Shown piece by piece: positions 41,556-54,301 of a DNA stretch of 64,000 nt (position 1 is its first letter; each line of letters starts with the position of its first letter). The notes below the pieces were generated by a model. It was given only the letters and a program-made list of their open reading frames with translations. It had not been told where the DNA came from and made no database searches. This DNA is from Streptomyces paludis (GTDB taxonomy: Bacteria > Actinomycetota > Actinomycetes > Streptomycetales > Streptomycetaceae). The position numbers and the translations under genes are program-made. The stretch is taken from positions 8,390,853 to 8,454,852 of the forward strand of contig NZ_CP031194.1 in the NCBI RefSeq assembly GCF_003344965.1, written 5' to 3'.

Positions 41556-41708
41556 TCAGGCGACGGAGCGGACGAAGCGGATGGCCGTGGCCCCGAGGAG
41601 GGCGGCGACCGCGCCGAAGATGTAGAGCGCCGTGTAGTTGGTGTGTGTGGCGCTGCCGATGGCGAGGAAGAACGGCGCGACGACGGGTGTGAGGTTCGGC
41701 TGTGATGT
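41556..41708 (-). pseudogene. MFS sugar transporter 3' remnant
   Basis: The last 50 codons of an MFS-type transporter: PNLTPVVAPFFLAIGS, then NYTALYIFGAVAALLGATAI and RFVRSV before the stop. Homology ends near 41705, where sequence with repeated TGTCACT begins. The gene probably once formed an operon with the GH3 gene 48 bases downstream and was cut when the transposition module arrived. Confidence 0.6.
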
Positions 41709-42177
41709 CACTGGGATGTTTGGCGTTGTATGTCACTAACGTGTAGGTATATTCGCGCTGTTCAGGGCCAGTTGGATCGGCCGATCATGGTGACAGCTCT
41801 CCGAATATTGCAGTGACGTGGAGCCGCATCGGCCAGCGTCGTGTTCGACGTATCTCCTTTGTCTCTCTGGTTCTGACGGAGCCGTCTGGGCGTGCGGAGT
41901 GCGTCCGGCGGTTCTTGGCAGGTACTGCGGGGGAGTGCGACGCCGGTGCCGGCGTCGCGGAGCCTGGCTGGTCCAGATTCCCGCAGCGGTCCCGAGGGTC
42001 CTTTAGCACGTGCGTCCATCGAACTGACGGGAACGTTCTGCTGCCACTCGTCTGAGTGAGCGGCTGGGCGGGAAGCCCATGTGTGGCTCATAGCCTCGCA
42101 TCAGACGCATTCGTCACACACATACGTCTGGCTGAACTGACCTGTATGCAACCGCTGTTCGTTGTTGGAGGCTGTAC
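41701..42177 (+). other. Left end and leader region of transposition module
   Basis: No gene. TGTCACT occurs at 41706 and 41731 (25 bp apart), with related inverted copies GGTGACA near 41789 and CAGTGACG near 41811, the multiple-site pattern seen at ends of Mu/Tn7-like elements. TGTCACTAACGTGTAGG at 41731 resembles the complement of 51372-51390. A GGAGG at 42165-42169 serves the leader frame. Confidence 0.45.
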
Positions 42178-42231
42178 GTGATCACCGTGCCGTTGTCCGC
42201 CCTCCCGTTTCGCGGGTGCCGGCACCGGTGA
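42178..42231 (+). CDS. Leader peptide coupled to transposase
   Basis: A GTG with GGAGG eight bases upstream opens a 17-residue frame, MITVPLSALPFRGCRHR. Its stop overlaps the GTG at 42228 (GTGA), the best start of the transposase. It probably couples transposase translation to a better initiation site and keeps its level low. Confidence 0.45.
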   Translation: MITVPLSALPFRGCRHR

Positions 42232-44615
42232 CGAGACTGGATGGTGCCTTGGAGACTGCGGAGACGGGCTTGGGGCGGCATCGGGACGAGTTGCGGCCCG
42301 CTGCTGTGGCCCGGCTGCTGCGGTTGCGTGGGGCGGGGGAGTTGACCACCGCGCATGTGCGGTTGGTCGCCGAGTCAGTGGACGTCAGCGTGCGGCAGGT
42401 GTGGCGCTGGCTGGCGCAGGCCGAGGAGACCGGCAGCACGGAGAAGCCCGAACGCAGGCGGTTCCGCATCACCGACGAGATCATCGAAGTCCTCGCTGAC
42501 CACCAGGGCAACGTCAAACGCGCTCACGAGCACCTGGTGCGTGCCGCCAAGGCGGCGGGGGAGGAGCCGATCGGTCTGACCACGCTGCACGACGCCATCG
42601 CCCGTGACCTCGACCCCGGTTTCATGGCGGGCCTGCGGGAGGGCATTCCGGCTGCTCGCGGCTTCGACCCCGCCTTCCAACGGCCGGCGGTAGCCCGGAA
42701 CCATGTGTGGGAGGGGGACCACAAGCAGGCCCCGCTCGTCGTGATGATGCCCGACAAGAAGCTGTCGAAGGTGTGGGTAACGTGGTTCGAGGACCGCGGT
42801 ACGGGCTATGTGATGGGTTGGGCGGTCACCGCCGGCTCCGCGCACCGTGGCTCGGTTCTGGCGGCCGTGAGGGCGTCCGTGTTGCGGGAGGATCCCTATG
42901 GGCCGACCGGGGGACTGCCTCAACTCGTACGGGTCGACGGCGGCGCCGACTTCCTGTCCAAGACCGTCCGGCGAGCTTTCGGCCTACTCGGCGTCCCGGT
43001 GCACCGGGTGCGCAGCGCCCGCCACAAGGGCGGGATCGAGCGGCTGAACCGCACCAGCATGACCCGCTTCTTCGCCGACCTGCCCCGCTACACCAAGGCG
43101 CCTCGGCTTGATCACCGCCGACGCCTCGGCGACCAGGACCCGCCGTTGACCTTCGAGGCATTCGTGGAGCGCCTGGGGGAGTGGGTGCACGAGCACAACA
43201 CCAAGCACGTGGTGAAGCGCACCGGGGTGACGCCGCTTGAGGCGTGGCTGGCCGACCCTACAGAGATCCGGCCCGAGCCCACTCCGGCCGAGCTGCGCGC
43301 GTTCATGCTGGAGAGCGATCACCGGCCCCGGAAGATCACCAGCCACGGGGTGGAGTTCGCGGGCCGCTGCTACATGCCCGAGAACGGTGTCGGCCGGATC
43401 GGGGTCGAGGTGCGGGTGAGGTGGATGCCGCACCACAGCCACGAGATCGACCTGTACACCTTCCGCGGCGACCGTTACCTGGGCCGGGCGTTCCTCAGCG
43501 ACGAGGCCACCGAGGAACAGCGCGCCAAGGTCCTTGACGACCGCCAGGAGCACAGCGCTGCCCTGCGCCGGGCACTGCAGCGCTCCGGTGAGCGCAGACG
43601 CGACCGGTATCTGCCTGCTACCGAACCCCAACTGCCCGTCCAGGCAACCCGCATGACCAAAGAAGAGGCGCTCGCCGAACTCGCGGGCACCAGCCATAGA
43701 GCGCCTGCTGCTCCCCGCCGACGCGCGGAGCCGTATCAGCCCCTGACCCCCATCCCGGCCGGCTGGACACGCCCCGGCCAGGCCACCGCACTCCCGGATT
43801 CCGTCTTCGGAGGACGCATGACCACCACTACTGCCGCGCCGCAGCAGCCGCCCGAGCCGGGGGCGCCGCGCCGTCCGGATCTGCGCCCGCAGTTCTTCCT
43901 CGGCCTCGAGGACTCCTCGTTGGTCGCCACCGACACGCTGCTGCAGATCAAGGACACCGTCGTCGACACCGTCGAGTCGAAGGCGATGTCGGTGATCTAC
44001 GGCGATGCGGGGCTCGGTAAGAGTTTCGGCACCCGGGCAACGATCCAGGAGATGAATCCGGATCTGATCCTCCCGCTGGACTTCGCCCGCTCCCGCCCGG
44101 GGCCGAAGGATCTGCGCGAGGAGTTGTTCCATCAGATGAACCTCTCCTGCAAGATGCCGGGGACGCCGACCGCGTTCGACAAGCTGCTGCGCGAGAGCCT
44201 GCCCCGGCGCCCGTATGTGATCGTGTGCGACGAGGCCCAGCAGTACCGGCGGGAGAACTTCGAGTTCCTGCGCAAGCTGTGGGACAACTGCGACCCCAAG
44301 CCCGCCATCCTCTTCGTCGGCGGCCGGGAGGCGTACGAGACGCTGCAGAGTGACCCGGCGCTGGCTTCGCGGATCTACATCCGCCTGGAGATCCTGGCGA
44401 TGATCGAGGAGGAGATCCTCAAGACTGTGCCCGACTCCCATCCGGTGTGGAAGGGCGCGGACGAGGCGCTGCTGAAGCGCATCGACACCCAGTACGCGCT
44501 CGGCTCCTTCCGGGAGTGGGCGAAGGTCACCAAACATGTGATCAAGGGGATGGAGCACTTGGGGGCCGACAAGGTCGACGACGCAGTCGTGGACTGGGCC
44601 CTGAAGCGGTGCTGA
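42228..44615 (+). CDS. DDE transposase fused to AAA+ ATPase (TnsB/TniA-TnsC/TniB type)
   Basis: One uninterrupted frame of 795 codons. Residues 1-530 are a Mu/TnsB-like transposase: N-terminal HTH (VRLVAESVDVSVRQVWRWLA), catalytic Asp in WEGDHKQAPLV, Asp in LVRVDGGADFLS and Glu in RHKGGIERLNR, then the beta-barrel and charged tail. Residues 531-795 are a TnsC/TniB-like ATPase with Walker A YGDAGLGKSF, Walker B YVIVCDEAQQ and the following FEFLRKLWDNC. An internal ATG at 43818 with its own ribosome-binding site could yield the ATPase alone. Normally these are two genes. Confidence 0.85.
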   Translation: MTRLDGALETAETGLGRHRDELRPAAVARLLRLRGAGELTTAHVRLVAESVDVSVRQVWRWLAQAEETGSTEKPERRRFRITDEIIEVLADHQGNVKRAHEHLVRAAKAAGEEPIGLTTLHDAIARDLDPGFMAGLREGIPAARGFDPAFQRPAVARNHVWEGDHKQAPLVVMMPDKKLSKVWVTWFEDRGTGYVMGWAVTAGSAHRGSVLAAVRASVLREDPYGPTGGLPQLVRVDGGADFLSKTVRRAFGLLGVPVHRVRSARHKGGIERLNRTSMTRFFADLPRYTKAPRLDHRRRLGDQDPPLTFEAFVERLGEWVHEHNTKHVVKRTGVTPLEAWLADPTEIRPEPTPAELRAFMLESDHRPRKITSHGVEFAGRCYMPENGVGRIGVEVRVRWMPHHSHEIDLYTFRGDRYLGRAFLSDEATEEQRAKVLDDRQEHSAALRRALQRSGERRRDRYLPATEPQLPVQATRMTKEEALAELAGTSHRAPAAPRRRAEPYQPLTPIPAGWTRPGQATALPDSVFGGRMTTTTAAPQQPPEPGAPRRPDLRPQFFLGLEDSSLVATDTLLQIKDTVVDTVESKAMSVIYGDAGLGKSFGTRATIQEMNPDLILPLDFARSRPGPKDLREELFHQMNLSCKMPGTPTAFDKLLRESLPRRPYVIVCDEAQQYRRENFEFLRKLWDNCDPKPAILFVGGREAYETLQSDPALASRIYIRLEILAMIEEEILKTVPDSHPVWKGADEALLKRIDTQYALGSFREWAKVTKHVIKGMEHLGADKVDDAVVDWALKRC
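43809..43820 (+). promoter_or_regulatory. Internal ribosome-binding site and ATG for separate ATPase
   Basis: GGAGGA at 43809-43814 precedes an in-frame ATG at 43818 by three bases, exactly at the transposase/ATPase junction. Initiation here would give a 265-residue ATPase of normal TniB length beside the fusion. Confidence 0.55.
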
Positions 44616-45442
44616 CCACCCCGCCCCCGCGCTCGGCGTCGGCCGGTCCGGGCCCGGCCGGCGCTGCCGAACCTTTCACCGTCGTGCAAGATGCCGTCCC
44701 ATCCGGCCTGCACTTCCTCGCCGTCCCCGGGGTACGCGCTCTGCTCACCCCGGGCATGCTCGCCGTCGGTGATGCGCTCGCCGATGCCTGTGCCCAGCGG
44801 CGGTTCCTCTGCGTGCTGGGTGATGCCGGGGTCGGCAAGACCTTCGCCGTCCGCAGCGTGGCACACCGCCTCGGCGGCCACCTTCCGCTGGATTTCCGGG
44901 CTCAGCCGGTGCCGGCGGACCTGCGTGCCTGCCTCCATCGTGAGCTTGGTCTGCGCGGTGAACCACCTGCCGACCCGGGGGCCGCCGACGCCTGGATCCG
45001 CCGTGCCCTGGCCCAGGGGCCGAGGATCGTTGTGGTCGAGGACGCCGACCGGCCGTCGGCGTCCTGCTTCGAGTACCTGCGCTTCCTGCACGACGACACT
45101 CCCGGCGGGCTGTGCGTGGTGCTCATCGCCGCGAGGCGTGGCGAACGCTCCTTGCGCGCCCAGCGGATGCTCGCCACCCGTAGCGCCGGCTGGCTTCACA
45201 TCTCTGCGCTCACCCGTGACCAGATACCCCAGGCGGTTCCCGTTCTGCATCCGCTGTGGCAGAGCGTCGCGGCCGGCGACCTGCAGGCGTTGGACGCCCG
45301 CCTCGCAGGCGGCGCTCTGCGCCGCTGGGCCGTGCTCACCCATCACACCCAGCGGGCCCTGGCAACCACCGGAGCGCAGACGCCGGACCAGCACCTGCTC
45401 AAGGCCGTGGCCGACCGGATCGAGGGCGGACCGCGTCCATGA
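44609..45442 (+). CDS. Second AAA+ ATPase (TnsC/TniB-like)
   Basis: A 277-residue ATPase starting at GTG 44609 inside the end of the fusion gene (7-base overlap). Walker A is LGDAGVGKTFAVRSVAHRL and Walker B is RIVVVEDADRPSASCFEYLR, aligning with the ATPase half of the fusion (YVIVCDEAQQYRRENFEFLR). It has a shorter sensor region and its own C-terminal helical part. Its stop overlaps the next start (ATGA). Two ATPase paralogues in one transposition operon suggest a mixed regulator ring or a division of labour in target choice. Confidence 0.78.
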   Translation: MLTTPPPRSASAGPGPAGAAEPFTVVQDAVPSGLHFLAVPGVRALLTPGMLAVGDALADACAQRRFLCVLGDAGVGKTFAVRSVAHRLGGHLPLDFRAQPVPADLRACLHRELGLRGEPPADPGAADAWIRRALAQGPRIVVVEDADRPSASCFEYLRFLHDDTPGGLCVVLIAARRGERSLRAQRMLATRSAGWLHISALTRDQIPQAVPVLHPLWQSVAAGDLQALDARLAGGALRRWAVLTHHTQRALATTGAQTPDQHLLKAVADRIEGGPRP

Positions 45443-46893
45443 CCACACCCACGCTCTCTCCCGCCACCGCTCCGCAGGCCGCCGCGCCGCCGTCGGCGGC
45501 TGCGGCCGCGCGGCCGGTGAGGCTGCTGCTGGACGGCGATGACGACCACGCGGTGCACCGGGCCGCCTACCAGTGGGCCGATCCCGCCCGCGGCCGGATC
45601 ACCGTCGATCCCACCCCGCACACCACCAGCCCGGCCTACCTCGCGCTGGATGTGCTGCGCGCCATGGGCCGCGACGGGTTCTCCCGCCCGGAAGCCGAGC
45701 GGATGTCCACCGACCCGGCCTGGCGGGCGGTGACCTGCTGGACCCTGGTCACCGACGTGCACGAGGCGATCGTCCTGCGCGCTCACCGCCTCACGGTGGA
45801 GCGGCTGCGCCGCCTGGCCGCGTGGCGTGCGGACACCGGCATCCGCCTCACGCTCCTTGCCCACATCCCGGAGCCGGCTGACGAGCAGCGCCTGCGTGAA
45901 CACCTCACAGCCGCCGGACTGGTGGACGTGGTGACCGTAGGCGGCACGGCCGCCGTCCTCGGCGCGATCGGCCCGGCCGCCGTCGGCCGCCGCACCGGCC
46001 CGCCCCCGCGCGATCAGGTCTACCCGCTGCCGACGGTGCCCCGTAGCGGGGTGGCCGCGTTCCGCGCGGACTGCTGGCGCCGCCAGAACGCCACGGACTT
46101 CGCCCACACCGACGGCCAGTACCGCGCCGGTTACGCCGCCGCCCGCACCTGGCTGGCCCGCACCCGGCCGCCCCGACCCGAGGTCACCGTTCCCGCCGAA
46201 GGCCCTGCCGCACCCACCCCCTGGAATCTGCAGGAGACGGAGGCGTTGCGGCTGTTCCTGGCACGGTTGACCGTCTCAAGTCCCAGCCCGCAGCACACCG
46301 TGGCGCGCGTGCGCGGCGCCCAGGCCGGCTTCCTGGCCCGCTCGGTGCTGCTCAACGTGCCGGACGACCTCACCAGTTGCGCGGGACCGGGCTTCACCAC
46401 CGTGCCCCTCACTGCGCGCGTTGTGCACACGATCACCGTGCGCCTGCCCAACCCGCTGCGCGCCGCCGCGGTGGCGGCCCTGCTGTTCACCGGCACCGCC
46501 ACGTCGCTGCTGTCGATGACCCAGATCGGATGCGTCGACGAGGGCGGCACCACCGTGGCCATCGACCGCGACTCGCGGATCCACATCGGTGAACCTCCCG
46601 GACCCCGGCACATGTACGCGATCCCGCCCCGCGCCCGCCCCCTGCTGCGCGCGGCCGTGGAATTCCGCCGCCGCACCCCGCGCACCGCCAACCATCACGG
46701 CTTGTTCGCGAACTGCTTCGGCACCACGCCACGCCTCGATGCCCTCATCGCCGACGCCGGGCTCGCGATCCCCGCCCTGGCCCACCCCCACGTGGGAGAC
46801 AACTGGCACACCGCCGCCCGCTGCTGGCACCTGCACACCCCCGCGCCACCCGCCCCTGATGCGATGCCGCGCCTTGGGGAGTTACGCCCGTGA
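45439..46893 (+). CDS. Unrecognised protein; P-loop-less AAA+-like N-terminus
   Basis: A 484-residue protein with no family that I can name. Residues 25-190 can be aligned with the second ATPase: LLLDGDDDHAVHRAAYQW sits where the P-loop would be but lacks GxxxxGK, and AIVLRAHRLTVERLRRLAAW followed by IRLTLLAHIPEP sits at Walker B without the acidic pair. The C-terminal 220 residues (LPNPLRAAAVAALLFTGTAT, then IPPRARPLLRAAVEF) faintly resemble a tyrosine-recombinase core without its catalytic residues. It is coupled by ATGA to the gene before and GTGA to the one after. Confidence 0.7.
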   Translation: MTTPTLSPATAPQAAAPPSAAAAARPVRLLLDGDDDHAVHRAAYQWADPARGRITVDPTPHTTSPAYLALDVLRAMGRDGFSRPEAERMSTDPAWRAVTCWTLVTDVHEAIVLRAHRLTVERLRRLAAWRADTGIRLTLLAHIPEPADEQRLREHLTAAGLVDVVTVGGTAAVLGAIGPAAVGRRTGPPPRDQVYPLPTVPRSGVAAFRADCWRRQNATDFAHTDGQYRAGYAAARTWLARTRPPRPEVTVPAEGPAAPTPWNLQETEALRLFLARLTVSSPSPQHTVARVRGAQAGFLARSVLLNVPDDLTSCAGPGFTTVPLTARVVHTITVRLPNPLRAAAVAALLFTGTATSLLSMTQIGCVDEGGTTVAIDRDSRIHIGEPPGPRHMYAIPPRARPLLRAAVEFRRRTPRTANHHGLFANCFGTTPRLDALIADAGLAIPALAHPHVGDNWHTAARCWHLHTPAPPAPDAMPRLGELRP

Positions 46894-47675
46894 CCGACCA
46901 ACTCGCGCCGTCCGGCGGCACGTCCGCGGTCGTGTTCGACCTGATGCTCCTGCGGACACGCGCCATGGAGTGCCGGCTCACCGACGAGGACCTGACCGCG
47001 CTGACCGGCATACCCACCGCCGACTTCGGCACCCACCTCACCCCGCACACCCTCCCCGCCGCGACCCTGTTCACCCTCGCCCGCGCCCTGAACACCTCCG
47101 CGGAATCCCTCCTGCGCCAGTCCGGACCGACCCGCCGTCCCGCCCCGGAGGCGGCCGGCCACGCCACCGTGCTGCACGCCGCCCTGCTCGAGGCCGACCG
47201 CATCCACCCCGACGACCTGGCCTCCGCTCTGGAATGGACCCCGCACCGCCTGAAGCGCGCCGCCACCACCCTGGCCGCCCACCTCGATCAGCCCAGCAGC
47301 CCCCACCGGCTCCTCCACACCGACACCGTCATCCACCTGACCACCATCCCCGGCCTGCTGGGCCCCAAACAGCGGCAGAACCTGCACAACTCAGGCCACA
47401 CCGCCGCCTCCCTCGCCCCCGGCGAGGCCGCCGCCGTCACCCGCCTGCTGCACCACACCGTCACCGGCCTTCCTGCCGACATGTCACCCGAGCAGATCCC
47501 CCGCCTCGCCAACCGGCGCCTGCTTGCCCCCTCCGGCGAGCAGCCGGCTCCCCATCCGGACGTGTTGTTCGCCCTCGGCCTGGCCGCCCATCCCCTCACC
47601 CGGACAGAGGCCGCCGCAGACGGCCCCGCGTCGGCGCCCGCCGCTGCCACACCGCCACCACCCGGAGCGCGATGA
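46890..47675 (+). CDS. Accessory protein with possible HTH
   Basis: A 261-residue protein starting at a GTG that overlaps the previous stop. Residues 25-70 (LTDEDLTALTGIPTADFG, then TLPAATLFTLARALNTSAES) look like a divergent Cro/CI-type helix-turn-helix. The rest is helical, Ala/Pro/His-rich, with LTTIPGLLGPKQRQNLHNSG. No known family. Its place in the coupled operon suggests DNA or target recognition for the transposase. Confidence 0.65.
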   Translation: MTDQLAPSGGTSAVVFDLMLLRTRAMECRLTDEDLTALTGIPTADFGTHLTPHTLPAATLFTLARALNTSAESLLRQSGPTRRPAPEAAGHATVLHAALLEADRIHPDDLASALEWTPHRLKRAATTLAAHLDQPSSPHRLLHTDTVIHLTTIPGLLGPKQRQNLHNSGHTAASLAPGEAAAVTRLLHHTVTGLPADMSPEQIPRLANRRLLAPSGEQPAPHPDVLFALGLAAHPLTRTEAAADGPASAPAAATPPPPGAR

Positions 47676-49168
47676 TGCCGTTGCCCCGTACGGCCACCGT
47701 GCCCGACACCACCATCACCGGCTCGTGGAAGCCCACATGGTCACCCGGCCGCGCCGGCCCCGGCCTGCCCCCGCTCACCGTGGTGCACGACCCGCACGAC
47801 GATTACGCCTTCATGGCCGCCGCGCTGGCCTCCCACACTCCGGCGCTGGGCCGTGTCACAGTCCACCCCACCGCCGTGGCGAGCGCTCCCGCCTCCCTGG
47901 CCCACGACCTGCTGCGCAGCATGGGCAAACACCTCCCGCCAACCGGCAGCGAGGACGGCACGTACTGGACCGGCAACACCGAGACCGCCTGGCGTGCGGT
48001 CGCCGCCTGGGTCTTCTCGCTGCGCATCGGACATGTCATCGTCACCCGGGCACATCGCATCAGCTCCCGGCACTTCGAGTACCTCTTCGCCCTGCGGGAG
48101 CTGACCGAAATCCGGCTGACCCTGCTGTGCAACGGCCCGCTCCCACCGGTCCTGGCCGCCGCCCTCGCCGTGCTCCCGCATGAAGCGGTGCACGGCCTGG
48201 CCGCGCACCGCCGAGCCGTGGGTGCTCCCGCGCCGGCTCCGCTGCTGCCCGTCGGCCGTTTCGCGTGGTGGGAGGCGGACGGGCAGTTCCCGCCTGATGA
48301 GGGAGAGCCGTGCTTCCTGCTGCCGGTGCGGCGTGCACCCGGCCGCGGTGAAATCGAGGCAGCGGCCCGCCGACTGGGCCGCGCGGTGCTCCCGCTGCCT
48401 GCTGCCGGCCGCTTCCCGCCCGAGCCCGATGAGCACACCGCGCTCCTCGCGTACAGGCTTCACGCGCGTATCGCTCATCCCGTCCACGCCGCGGCGCTGG
48501 CGGTGCGCATCTTCACCGGCTGCCCGGACGGGCAGCTGCAGCTGCCCGCCGCGCACAAGGCTCCGCCGACCCGGCCGGAGCGTGACCGGGAACGTCGGAC
48601 ACCGTCCTGGGCAGGGGACTTGATCGAGGCAGCCCACCGCTTCGGGCACCTCGAAGGGCGAGAGTGCAGAGCCCGCCCGCTGCGGCTGAGCCCCTGGGAC
48701 CAAGCAGGCGTGACCGAAGCGGCCCACACCTGCGGCATGGTCGAGCACCAGGCGCCCCGCCCGAGCCGGCACCCGGCCGCGAGCCCCCCCGGGTTCCCCA
48801 CGGCCGCCTGCCGCACACCGGAGCGCGGGCAGCGCACCGGAACCGAACCGGGCAGCATGAGGCGGGTACGCGCCCAACGGCCCGCAGACAACCAGGGAGC
48901 AGACGATGGCCGAGCCAGGGACAGAACTCTTCGAGGCGATCCGCCGCGACCACCGCGCGGGCGACAGACTCCCCAGCTCCCTGGCCGCCCGGCACGGCGT
49001 GGACCGCCAGACGGCCAAGGAGGCGATCTCGACCGTGCTACCCCTGCCGCAATCCCTCCCGGCCGACGAAGAGGGCCTGGACGAGGCCCGTCAGTTCCTG
49101 GATGCGCTGCTGGAAGAAGACCAGGCCAAAGCGCCCGACAAGCGCCGCTCGGCCTTCGGGTTGTATGA
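47672..49168 (+). CDS. Paralogue of the P-loop-less protein; 3' end unclear
   Basis: Starts at ATG 47672 (a second ATG follows at once), overlapping the previous stop. Residues 30-190 are clearly related to the protein at 45439: HDPHDDYAFMAAALASHTPA, GRVTVHP, LAHDLLRSMG, then HVIVTRAHRISSRHFEYLFA and IRLTLLCNGP. Like it, it lacks a P-loop. A shorter counterpart of the C-terminal part appears (HARIAHPVHAAALAVRIFTG). The frame stays open to 49168, but the next gene begins at 48906 with better coding character, so the true end was probably near 48.88 kb and an indel removed the stop. Confidence 0.6.
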   Translation: MMPLPRTATVPDTTITGSWKPTWSPGRAGPGLPPLTVVHDPHDDYAFMAAALASHTPALGRVTVHPTAVASAPASLAHDLLRSMGKHLPPTGSEDGTYWTGNTETAWRAVAAWVFSLRIGHVIVTRAHRISSRHFEYLFALRELTEIRLTLLCNGPLPPVLAAALAVLPHEAVHGLAAHRRAVGAPAPAPLLPVGRFAWWEADGQFPPDEGEPCFLLPVRRAPGRGEIEAAARRLGRAVLPLPAAGRFPPEPDEHTALLAYRLHARIAHPVHAAALAVRIFTGCPDGQLQLPAAHKAPPTRPERDRERRTPSWAGDLIEAAHRFGHLEGRECRARPLRLSPWDQAGVTEAAHTCGMVEHQAPRPSRHPAASPPGFPTAACRTPERGQRTGTEPGSMRRVRAQRPADNQGADDGRARDRTLRGDPPRPPRGRQTPQLPGRPARRGPPDGQGGDLDRATPAAIPPGRRRGPGRGPSVPGCAAGRRPGQSARQAPLGLRVV

Positions 49169-49583
49169 GCAGTTGAACCTTCGTACCGACGGACTTCCGC
49201 TCTCCTACCGGTGGGTGTGGCAGTACGTCACCGATCGCCGCGCCCAGCACGCCGACATCAGCCCACCGCAACCACAGACGCGGACCTGGGCGGCAGACGT
49301 CCCCTCCGACATGCCGGAGTTCGTCACCGACCTGATCACCAGCGCGGTGCGCCACCTGGCCGAGCTGAAGATCGAGGGCACTGCGCCGGCCGCGACCGGT
49401 GTCGAACTCGGCATGGTCTCCCTCGGCACCGCCAGGGCCCGGATCGACCAGGCCCTGTGGGAACTCGCGCTGGCCGGACGCCGCGCCGGGCTGACCTACG
49501 ACCAGATGAGCGCCTTCACCGGCATCCCCGAAGACGACCTGGCCCGGCAGACCGAGGACTACCACCGCCTCATGACGACCTGA
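48906..49583 (+). CDS. IstA-like DNA-binding protein without catalytic domain
   Basis: A 225-residue protein with GGGAG eight bases before the ATG. Residues 1-110 match the N-terminal DNA-binding part of IS21 transposase IstA: LFEAIRRDHRAGDRLPSSLA, RHGVDRQTAKEAISTVLPLP, then RRSAFGLYEQLN and LSYRWVWQYVTDRRA. The DDE core that should follow is absent. Instead there is a 100-residue helical domain ending in a short HTH-like LTYDQMSAFTGIPEDDLARQ. It is the last gene of the operon and may recognise element ends or targets. Confidence 0.7.
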   Translation: MAEPGTELFEAIRRDHRAGDRLPSSLAARHGVDRQTAKEAISTVLPLPQSLPADEEGLDEARQFLDALLEEDQAKAPDKRRSAFGLYEQLNLRTDGLPLSYRWVWQYVTDRRAQHADISPPQPQTRTWAADVPSDMPEFVTDLITSAVRHLAELKIEGTAPAATGVELGMVSLGTARARIDQALWELALAGRRAGLTYDQMSAFTGIPEDDLARQTEDYHRLMTT

Positions 49584-51508: not shown

Positions 51509-53737
51509 ATGTCGGAGTTGTTCGATGCGGTGGACGCGTTGCTCGCGTCCCGTGCCGCGCTGCCGGTGCCGGCGGAGCGCAAGCGGCTGCGGGCCCTGCA
51601 CGGGCTGACGATTGACGAGGTGGCGACCGCGCTGAAGGTGCGGCGGGCCACGGTCAGCGCGTGGGAGTCGGGCAGGACCGAGCCCCGGCCGCCGGAGCGG
51701 GACGCGTACGCCCGGCTGCTGGACAGGCTCGCGGAGCTCTACCCCGCCGACCCGGCCGCCGCTCAGGACGCTGCGGCGCGGGCCGCGCTCTCCGGCGCGA
51801 CCGCCCCGGAGGAAGCGCCGACCCTGTCCACGGGTCCGGCTTCCGGGGCTGCGGCCACCGCGGCCGTGAACACCCAGGCCCCTGCCCCTGTTGCCCCTGC
51901 TGTGGCAGCCGCGCCGCGTCCGGCGCGCGCCAACGGGACGTCGTCGACGTCGCGGCGGCCGGGGGCGAAGAAGGCCGCCCCGGCCGGAACATCGGCGGGC
52001 GGCGCCGACCCGCGCTTCGGGAACGGGCCGCTCGCGGTCGTCGACGTCGATCCCGACGGAAAGGTGCTGGCGTACTGCGTCGGCGGCCTGGTCCTGGACA
52101 CACCCGCCAAGTCCCTGCCGTCCCTGGTGGACTGGACGCTGCGCGAGGCGAAGCTCGGGCAGCCGAAACTGTCCGGGCCGGGAAGGCCGGCCGACCCGCT
52201 GCTCGTGCTCACCGAGGCCGCACTGGAGCGCTACGGTCTGCCGGTCGCCCTGAGCGATGAGGAGCGGTTGGCCGGGCGGCTCCCGGAGAGCCACAAGATC
52301 ATCAAGCAGCTGACCCGTGCGGAGTGGAAGCTGACGAAGCGCGGGTTCGGGCCGTGGGCGCGGATCTACCGCCCTGCCACCGGCTCGGAGCGGGCCTGCG
52401 TGCAGTTGTGTATCCCGTCCTGGAACGCGCTGGACATCCGCCACTGGGGCGATGCCGGGCAGCTGCCTCCGGCGGAACTCGCCCGGCTGCTGGGTGGGTA
52501 CGCGTCGCGGGTGATGACGCCGCGCGGATCGACCGCGGTGACCGGCCTGGAGCTGATGACCGCGCTGCACCCGCCGACCCGCGCCTCCGAGCCGGACGCC
52601 GACGGCAAGCGGCACTCCGAGCACAACCCCGGCTCGCTGGGGAAGGACCCGGTCGACTGCGCGCCGTGCGAGGCCCCGGACGGGCACCCGCTCCTCAAGG
52701 ATCTGCCGCGCTTCCACGTCCGCGGCCCGGCGGAAAAGCTGTTCGAGGAGGCGTACGACTGGGCCCGGCCGCTCACCGACGCCGAATGCCTGCGCCGCGA
52801 ACTCGTCGGTCTGGACGTGAACATGGCGTTCGCCGCCGGCGCGAACGGCCTGACTGTCGGCCTGGGAGCACCGGCGTATGTGAAGGACCCGGTGTTCGAT
52901 CCGAAGCTCCCGGGGAGCTGGCTGGTGGACCTGTCGCATGTCGACCTGTCCCGGGTGAAGGCCGGCAAGGAGTGGGTGGAGCTGGACGGCGCGCTGCTGC
53001 CCAGCCCGTTCACACCGAAGGGGGAGCGCCCGGAAGGGCCGGCCTGGTACGCGACACCGACCGTGGCCTACGCGGTGGAGCTGGGCTACGACGTCGCGCC
53101 GACCGAGGCGTACGTCCGGTACGAGAACGGCCGCTACCTGGACGGCTGGTACCAGCGGCTGCGCGACGCCTACCTCGCCACGATGGCCGACCTCGGTGTC
53201 GCCGCGGACCTGCCGCCGCAGGACTTCCTGACGGCGATGGACGGCTACAGGAGCCGCGATCCGGAGCTGGCGATCGTCGTCTCGGCGGTCAAGGCGACGG
53301 TGAAGGGCGGGCTGGGCAAGCTGCGCGAGCGGCCCCGGGGCGAGGGCTGGCGGCCGGGCGAGCCGTGGCGGGCGCTGGCGCGGCCGACGTGGCGGCCCGA
53401 CATCCGCGCGGCGGTCATCTCCCGTACGCGGATCAACCTCCACCGCAAAATCGTCAAGCACGCGGCGTTCACCGGGCAGTACCCGGTGGCGATTCTCTCC
53501 GACTGTGTCGTGTACGCGGCCGAGGGCCCGTCGCCGCTCGATTTCCTGCCGTACCGGGAGGGCAAGGCACTGCCGGGCGGCTTCAGGCTCGGGGTCAACC
53601 CGGGCCTGGTGAAGCACGAGGGCACGCAGAGCGTGCTGTGGGGCGAGGGCGTCCGCGAACAGTTCGACGCCCCGGAACTCAACCTCGCCCGCTACATCAA
53701 GGACGGCACCGTCACCGACAACGACACCGGGGAGTAG
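51509..53737 (+). CDS. tap: Telomere-associated protein Tap
   Basis: A 742-residue protein, the expected length of Streptomyces Tap. An N-terminal XRE-type HTH (LTIDEVATALKVRRATVSAW, residues 32-51) is followed by an Ala/Pro-rich linker and a large conserved body with VNMAFAAGANGLTVGLGAPA and RINLHRKIVKHAAFTGQYPV. Tap binds the 3' single-strand overhang of linear replicon ends and recruits the terminal protein for end patching. A strong CAGGAGGTG precedes the ATG, and tpg follows after six bases. Confidence 0.93.
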   Translation: MSELFDAVDALLASRAALPVPAERKRLRALHGLTIDEVATALKVRRATVSAWESGRTEPRPPERDAYARLLDRLAELYPADPAAAQDAAARAALSGATAPEEAPTLSTGPASGAAATAAVNTQAPAPVAPAVAAAPRPARANGTSSTSRRPGAKKAAPAGTSAGGADPRFGNGPLAVVDVDPDGKVLAYCVGGLVLDTPAKSLPSLVDWTLREAKLGQPKLSGPGRPADPLLVLTEAALERYGLPVALSDEERLAGRLPESHKIIKQLTRAEWKLTKRGFGPWARIYRPATGSERACVQLCIPSWNALDIRHWGDAGQLPPAELARLLGGYASRVMTPRGSTAVTGLELMTALHPPTRASEPDADGKRHSEHNPGSLGKDPVDCAPCEAPDGHPLLKDLPRFHVRGPAEKLFEEAYDWARPLTDAECLRRELVGLDVNMAFAAGANGLTVGLGAPAYVKDPVFDPKLPGSWLVDLSHVDLSRVKAGKEWVELDGALLPSPFTPKGERPEGPAWYATPTVAYAVELGYDVAPTEAYVRYENGRYLDGWYQRLRDAYLATMADLGVAADLPPQDFLTAMDGYRSRDPELAIVVSAVKATVKGGLGKLRERPRGEGWRPGEPWRALARPTWRPDIRAAVISRTRINLHRKIVKHAAFTGQYPVAILSDCVVYAAEGPSPLDFLPYREGKALPGGFRLGVNPGLVKHEGTQSVLWGEGVREQFDAPELNLARYIKDGTVTDNDTGE

Positions 53738-53743
53738 CAGGCC

Positions 53744-54301
53744 ATGAGCACGTTCGGGGACGGCCTCGACAGAGCGGTGCAGAAGGCGTTCACCCGCCCG
53801 GTCCCCAAATCGGCCGGCGCGCAGATGCGTTACCTGGTCAGACAGCACAAGGGCACCAGGGCGGTCGCCCAGATGCTGCGGGTCTCCCAGCGCACCGTCG
53901 AGCGGTACGTGAAGGACCAGATCAAGAAACCCCGCCCGGACCTCGCCGCCCGCCTGGAGGCCGAGGTCAAGCGGCGCTGGCAGCCACAGATCCGCGCCAG
54001 GGCCCGCCGCGACGCGGCCACCACCGGCGGCATCGTCATCGACACCCGCGCCCGCCTCGGCTACACCGCACCAATCGGCTCGACCGACGAGGACCGCGTA
54101 CGGCACCTCACCCTCGCCCTTCCACCCCGCCACGCCGCCCGCCTCTTCGCGGCACAGGAACAGGGCGCCGACGACGAACGCCTCCGCGAAATCACCGCCG
54201 AAGCACTCAAGGAAACCTACTTCCAGGACGGCGGACGCCGCGCCGGCTCCCTGGAAGAGGTGCGCTTCACCGACATCGAACACCTGGAATTCGACCTCTA
54301 A
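53744..54301 (+). CDS. tpg: Telomere terminal protein Tpg
   Basis: A 185-residue protein, the expected length. It has an N-terminal conserved block, an HTH-like segment (GTRAVAQMLRVSQRTVERYV, residues 37-56) and a C-terminal half with reverse-transcriptase-like similarity reported for the family. Tpg is joined covalently to the 5' ends of linear Streptomyces DNA and primes end patching. Thr114, which I recall as the linked residue, is present in IGSTDEDRV. It is translationally close to tap. The pair shows that the replicon is linear and probably uses classical telomeres. Confidence 0.95.
   Translation: MSTFGDGLDRAVQKAFTRPVPKSAGAQMRYLVRQHKGTRAVAQMLRVSQRTVERYVKDQIKKPRPDLAARLEAEVKRRWQPQIRARARRDAATTGGIVIDTRARLGYTAPIGSTDEDRVRHLTLALPPRHAARLFAAQEQGADDERLREITAEALKETYFQDGGRRAGSLEEVRFTDIEHLEFDL

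Follow-up and report, generated by a model that had tools for sequence, protein, structure and literature searches.

The system considered here is a seven-gene operon with an adjoining transposon end in a stretch of 64 kb (the window) that closes a linear-type contig of 8.45 Mb from Streptomyces paludis (NZ_CP031194.1). Its closest described relatives are the Tn7-like and Tn5053 elements. The likeness lies in the DDE transposase with its Mu C-terminal domain, in the TnsC-like ATPase and in the TGTGA ends with internal repeats; TnsA was not found in the transposition system, which is a further likeness to Tn5053. Tn5053 elements target resolution sites (PMC11406308, accessible part), and the Rhodococcus relatives described below similarly lie beside a recombination-associated site. 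The system differs in that no TniQ/TnsD was found among the Pfam matches at E <= 1 for six operon products, the putative selector combining instead an ATP-less TnsC fold with a recombinase-like fold, and in that the Streptomyces copies show a single transposon end and run on to the replicon end.

The nearest precedent for this selector, for which we use the names PA and PB (P, or the P family, for proteins of this type), is TnsF of Tn6022 and Tsy, a derivative of a tyrosine recombinase that is free of the catalytic site and takes part in target selection; as described in the accessible part of PMC10293859, TnsF has N-terminal zinc fingers, a TniQ partner and comM as its target. PA, in contrast, has an N-terminal TnsC fold and no TniQ that could be found, and its targets would be telomere-proximal or recombinase-site DNA.

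That the ends of Streptomyces chromosomes change quickly and are shared is commonly ascribed to recombination, and Tn4811 is found at the ends of SLP2 and of the chromosome. Telomere replacement and the homogenisation of arms, as proposed for Streptomyces, would lead to replicon ends common to chromosome and plasmid (PMC7205883, accessible part). Here, unlike in the known cases of such sharing, the common segment starts at a TnsB-type transposon end and the operon lies inside it. We consider it somewhat more probable than the contrary that PA and PB are target-selector adaptors of a TnsB/TnsC system, the Streptomyces form of which moves chromosome arms extending from transposon end to telomere. 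No description of such a targeting fusion, or of an arm-moving element, was found in searches of an open-access library, in which subscription literature is for the most part absent, and the accessible part of the Kitasatospora KVP1 paper contains nothing on such elements.

An operon with two ATPases and two ATP-less TnsC-like proteins

The operon (42162-49583) consists of seven genes lying head to tail on the + strand. Its features, together with the transposon end that precedes it, are as follows:

41688..41870, + strand: left transposon end (LE), TGTGAGGTTCGG..., which spans some 180 bp and contains repeats of the TGTCAC type
42162..43817, + strand: DDE transposase of the TnsB/TniA/MuA kind, start codon uncertain
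43818..44615, + strand: ATPase 1, TnsC/TniB-like, with intact Walker A and B
44609..45442, + strand: ATPase 2, AAA_22 at 42.7 bits (Pfam cut-off 27)
45439..46893, + strand: PA, with a predicted ATP-less TnsC-fold domain (about residues 24-171) and an apparently tyrosine-recombinase-like C-terminal domain (about 325-458)
46890..47675, + strand: small helix-turn-helix (HTH)-like protein, so classed by reading its sequence, in 16 of 18 related loci
47672..48860, + strand: PB, a paralogue of PA whose reading frame shifts close to the C-terminus, with an open frame that continues to 49168
48906..49583, + strand: second HTH-like protein, present in 11 of 18 related loci; the conserved genes of the operon end here

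The sequence-only reading of this locus had held that the proteins at 45439 and 47672, now PA and PB, resemble each other and have lost both the P-loop and the acidic Walker B residues, DE being replaced by RAH. Both points were borne out. BLASTP aligns the N-terminal domains at 40% over 125 residues (E 7e-19), which makes them homologous, and adds a short match between the C-terminal halves (E 0.004). The loss of the ATP motifs is family-wide, as judged from 45 of the 87 PA-search matches and 47 of the 108 PB-search matches, picked for spread, which have a near-invariant D-x-x-D and R-A-H instead: in PA homologues D32, D35, R114 and A115 are each present in 45/45 and H116 in 44/45; at the equivalent positions of PB homologues D40 is found in 45/47 and D43, R126 and H128 in 47/47; and in ten distant relatives D4, D7, R86 and A87 occur in all ten and H88 in nine.

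The same reading had aligned PA and PB with the ATPases of the operon. This held at the level of structure, since the top PDB matches of the PA and PB models are TnsC and MuB, but not at that of sequence, where BLASTP against ATPase 2 detects nothing and a profile comparison gave no clear result. The models thus support an AAA+ core fold of the TnsC/MuB type for PA and PB, and with it the description of the two as AAA+-like paralogues that lack a P-loop and are encoded in a transposition operon; neither a lack of AAA+ topology nor a best match to an unrelated family was encountered. Compared with the AAA+ regulators TnsC and MuB, PA and PB are without P-loop, acidic Walker B and, in both models, any obvious lid. 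Among the 45 PA homologues, Pfam gave a weak AAA_22 match in eight (best 0.02) and no integrase match. A viral fold library gave nothing at E <= 0.001, and sequence-profile comparisons for the two domains of PA gave no clear support for either assignment.

The second half of PA apparently resembles a dead tyrosine recombinase. With boxes placed by eye, the residue after the TGT box (351-353) is A, D, S or T rather than Arg, and W456 occupies, in 45/45 homologues, the place where the HxxR box would be expected; past residue 320, column 393 alone has Tyr in at least 20 of the 45 rows. The C-terminal half would, on this sequence evidence, be devoid of the catalytic Arg, the His-x-x-Arg and the nucleophilic Tyr. 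This recombinase-like fold is proposed for PA only, the fold search with PB having been made with rows that left out its C-terminal half.

As to the true ATPases, both in the window are of the TnsC/TniB AAA+ kind by AAA_22, the TniB model itself staying below its cut-off; for ATPase 1 the scores are 54.4 bits for AAA_22 (cut-off 27) and 16.2 for TniB (cut-off 22.4). ATPase 1 homologues keep K68 (19/19), D138 (19/19) and E139 (18/19). The earlier count of two active ATPases stands for Walker A, which is kept in both (in ATPase 2 homologues G71, G74, G76, K77 and T78 are all 13/13), and is uncertain for ATPase 2 because its acidic Walker B pair is mostly E-D and not D-E (position 144, E in nine and D in four; position 145, D in eleven and E in two). 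ATPase 2 could represent a stage between ATPase 1, which is active, and the P proteins, which are ATP-less. For the transposase, Pfam gave Mu-transpos_C at 26.5 bits (above its cut-off of 21.7) and rve at 13.9 bits, under its own cut-off.

Streptomyces replicon ends and Rhodococcus insertion sites

Searches in which some 8000 best candidates were scored yielded at least 87 proteins for PA, nearly all from Streptomyces, Kitasatospora or Actinacidiphila where named, and at least 108 for PB. In 18 loci of named genomes, some of them cut off within the operon by the end of the contig and a few of them with broken copies, the gene order is conserved: DDE transposase (17), ATPase 1 (17), ATPase 2 (18), PA (18), HTH-like protein (16), PB (15) and second HTH-like protein (11). 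A P-family match is present in 83 of 392 genus genomes.

These copies lie at replicon ends. Of 28 full-length PA matches, 19 were measured; 18 of these lie no more than 100 kb from a contig end and without exception point outward, the nineteenth adjoining a run of N; of 37 further P-family matches measured, 32 are near a contig end and 25 of those 32 point outward. Both copies of terminal inverted repeats are included in these counts, which by genome become 9/9 for the full-length matches and 28/32 overall. Two internal copies, G340:C1 at about 1.83 Mb, next to a run of N, and G007:C1 at about 5.28 Mb, beside tap-tpg, look like misplaced replicon ends, the former displaced by scaffolding and the latter perhaps by a rotated assembly. 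The G340 copy was for a time a candidate for a 6.2-kb two-ended transposon, which was rejected when its right limit turned out to be the run of N.

On its inward side, the Streptomyces element has one transposon end, LE. Similarity begins abruptly at TGTGAGG in 8/8 aligned loci with unrelated flanks, and the pattern recurs in further loci. Sequence common to two replicon ends starts at the transposon end (to within 8 bp) in 11 of the 19 genomes compared; telomere-proximal genes are cut there in four of 28 inner flanks, and transposon ends with different inner flanks occur within one genome. A right end was sought as the inverted left end (up to 8 mismatches in 25), as GAACCTCACA with one mismatch, as GAACCTCA and TGTCAC clusters, and as its inverted first 14 bp, for which as many as three mismatches were allowed; nothing exceeded the control level, which does not by itself prove absence, and TGTCAC clusters were seen in G193 only, where on reading they proved unlike the left end. 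A model in which both arms move at once predicted 5-bp duplications that match between left and right flanks; it was dropped, as flanks read by eye gave it no support.

The Rhodococcus relatives are plasmid-borne, several of the plasmids being recorded as circular, and consist of a transposase, an ATPase and one P. Perfect 11-bp inverted ends lie about 4.1 kb apart in three of the five loci compared. In all five, the inferred right end, placed in two of them by alignment only, is 76, 88, 82, 90 or 84 bp from a conserved site. This site occurs in 31 plasmid records from Rhodococcus, and in 7/7 records inspected it lies ahead of a gene for a tyrosine recombinase or integrase. Four of the seven look empty, and three carry a remnant that resembles a right end. 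The fixed offset, as is the case with Tn7-like target selectors, points to P as a selector of the target and not as a ring subunit alone. In some Rhodococcus plasmids (L147, L149 and L173), Tn7-like genes of the TnsA/TnsB/TnsC/TniQ type adjoin the recombinase-associated site, so that several transposon families may share it as a hot spot.

Proposed target selection and replacement of chromosome arms

In the reading that we favour, PA would be a new fusion, of an ATP-less TnsC-fold domain with a dead tyrosine-recombinase-like domain, that serves as target selector, with PB as its paralogue in Streptomyces. The recombinase-like half would bind the target DNA, and the TnsC-like half would dock on or cap the ATPase oligomer and thereby recruit the transposase. 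In Rhodococcus this would give rise to compact transposons, three of which clearly carry an inverted end on either side, at a constant spacing from the recombinase-associated site; in Streptomyces, one transposon end would be kept and the telomere would act as the effective other boundary. There, one-ended strand transfer into telomere-proximal DNA, followed by outward copying, would replace the old replicon end by the arm of the element: operon, cargo, sometimes tap-tpg, and telomere. As TnsA was not found, joining would be confined to the 3' end, and the 3' end of the target could prime copying (a principle drawn from the accessible part of PMC11406308), which, given a telomere at the distal side, would yield a full new arm. 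Some arms carry their own terminal-protein genes. A bolder proposal, which we make tentatively and judge to fall a little short of an even chance, is that of a selfish telomere, with a transposon end inside, a telomere outside and ATP-less TnsC-recombinase adaptors, which spreads to every linear replicon end in the cell by one-ended transposition and copying.

The main rival to such a movement of arms is an ordinary two-ended insertion near the telomeres, after which break-induced replication between copies would homogenise the sequence from LE to the telomere. The Rhodococcus relatives do carry two ends, and homogenisation resembling break-induced replication, as well as plasmid telomere replacement, has been proposed for Streptomyces ends (PMC7205883, accessible part); we nevertheless regard this course of events as rather unlikely. 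A different doubt concerns the role of PA and PB, for which the sequence-only reading had suggested a heteromeric ring. They could be structural members of a TnsC ring of mixed composition, in fixed positions next to one or two active ATPases, and take no part in choosing the target. Such a ring, which we hold to be unlikely, would agree with their TnsC/MuB fold and with the encoding of four AAA-like products by a single operon, but P has a large second domain, and in distant relatives with a single P and a single ATPase the insertions nonetheless keep a constant spacing from a site. Ring and selector are compatible rather than exclusive, and the likelihoods that we give to the ring and to the moving arms overlap and do not sum to one.

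It is improbable, in our view, that the locus is now immobile and has been domesticated from a transposon for the maintenance of telomeres. This would account for the tap or tpg that adjoins the operon in several genomes and for the convergent tpg-like gene beside P in 9/10 elements of a second subtype; the patchy occurrence of the P family (83/392) does not fit it, and the differing inner flanks within one genome argue for recent movement. An assembly artefact, by which the ends of several replicons were wrongly given the same arm, is very improbable: several contig ends do look truncated, and the second G340 copy adjoins a run of N, but the LE junction recurs across unrelated genomes and appears in the draft assembly G202 as a graph-like break.

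If PA and PB act as we favour, transposase targeting can be independent of TniQ, which bears on the evolution and the engineering of TnsC-based targeting. If arms are moved as proposed, there would be a specific and testable enzymatic cause for the speed with which Streptomyces chromosome ends turn over and for their sharing, and the element may spread chromosome ends between chromosomes and plasmids.

Subtypes, neighbouring genes and reading frames

The second subtype combines a P gene with two pairs of transposase and ATPase (for example, G231, G382, G140, G233, G347, G007, G165 and G092). Its ten loci include G293, counted though without a transposase match, and G096, the one locus without a tpg-like gene.

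Outward of the operon in the window are two further genes, with the following products:

51509..53737, + strand: Tap-like telomere-associated protein
53744..54301, + strand: Tpg-like terminal protein, 185 aa, directly after the Tap-like gene

No common sequence was found when the right end of the window was compared with the 40 kb at the start of its contig, so the assembly may lack terminal repeats or the chromosome may have unlike ends. The small protein at 46890..47675 has no Pfam match at E <= 1, and the second HTH-like protein reaches only 15 bits with GntR, under the cut-off.

The open reading frames 44609-45442, 45439-46893, 46890-47675 and 47672 onward are real and overlap head to tail. 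The end of PB had been put at 48900, which is close to the end of its homologue P0091 (395 aa) at about 48.86 kb, whereas the open frame to 49168 overruns the gene, owing to a frame change near 48.79 kb; intact copies of PB are known in other loci. The transposase and ATPase 1 form, in the window, a single stop-free open frame of 817 aa (42162-44615), with GGAGG before the ATG at 43818. Where frames were compared in related loci, the two genes are in different frames, and their joint frame here may therefore have arisen through a local indel or by fusion.
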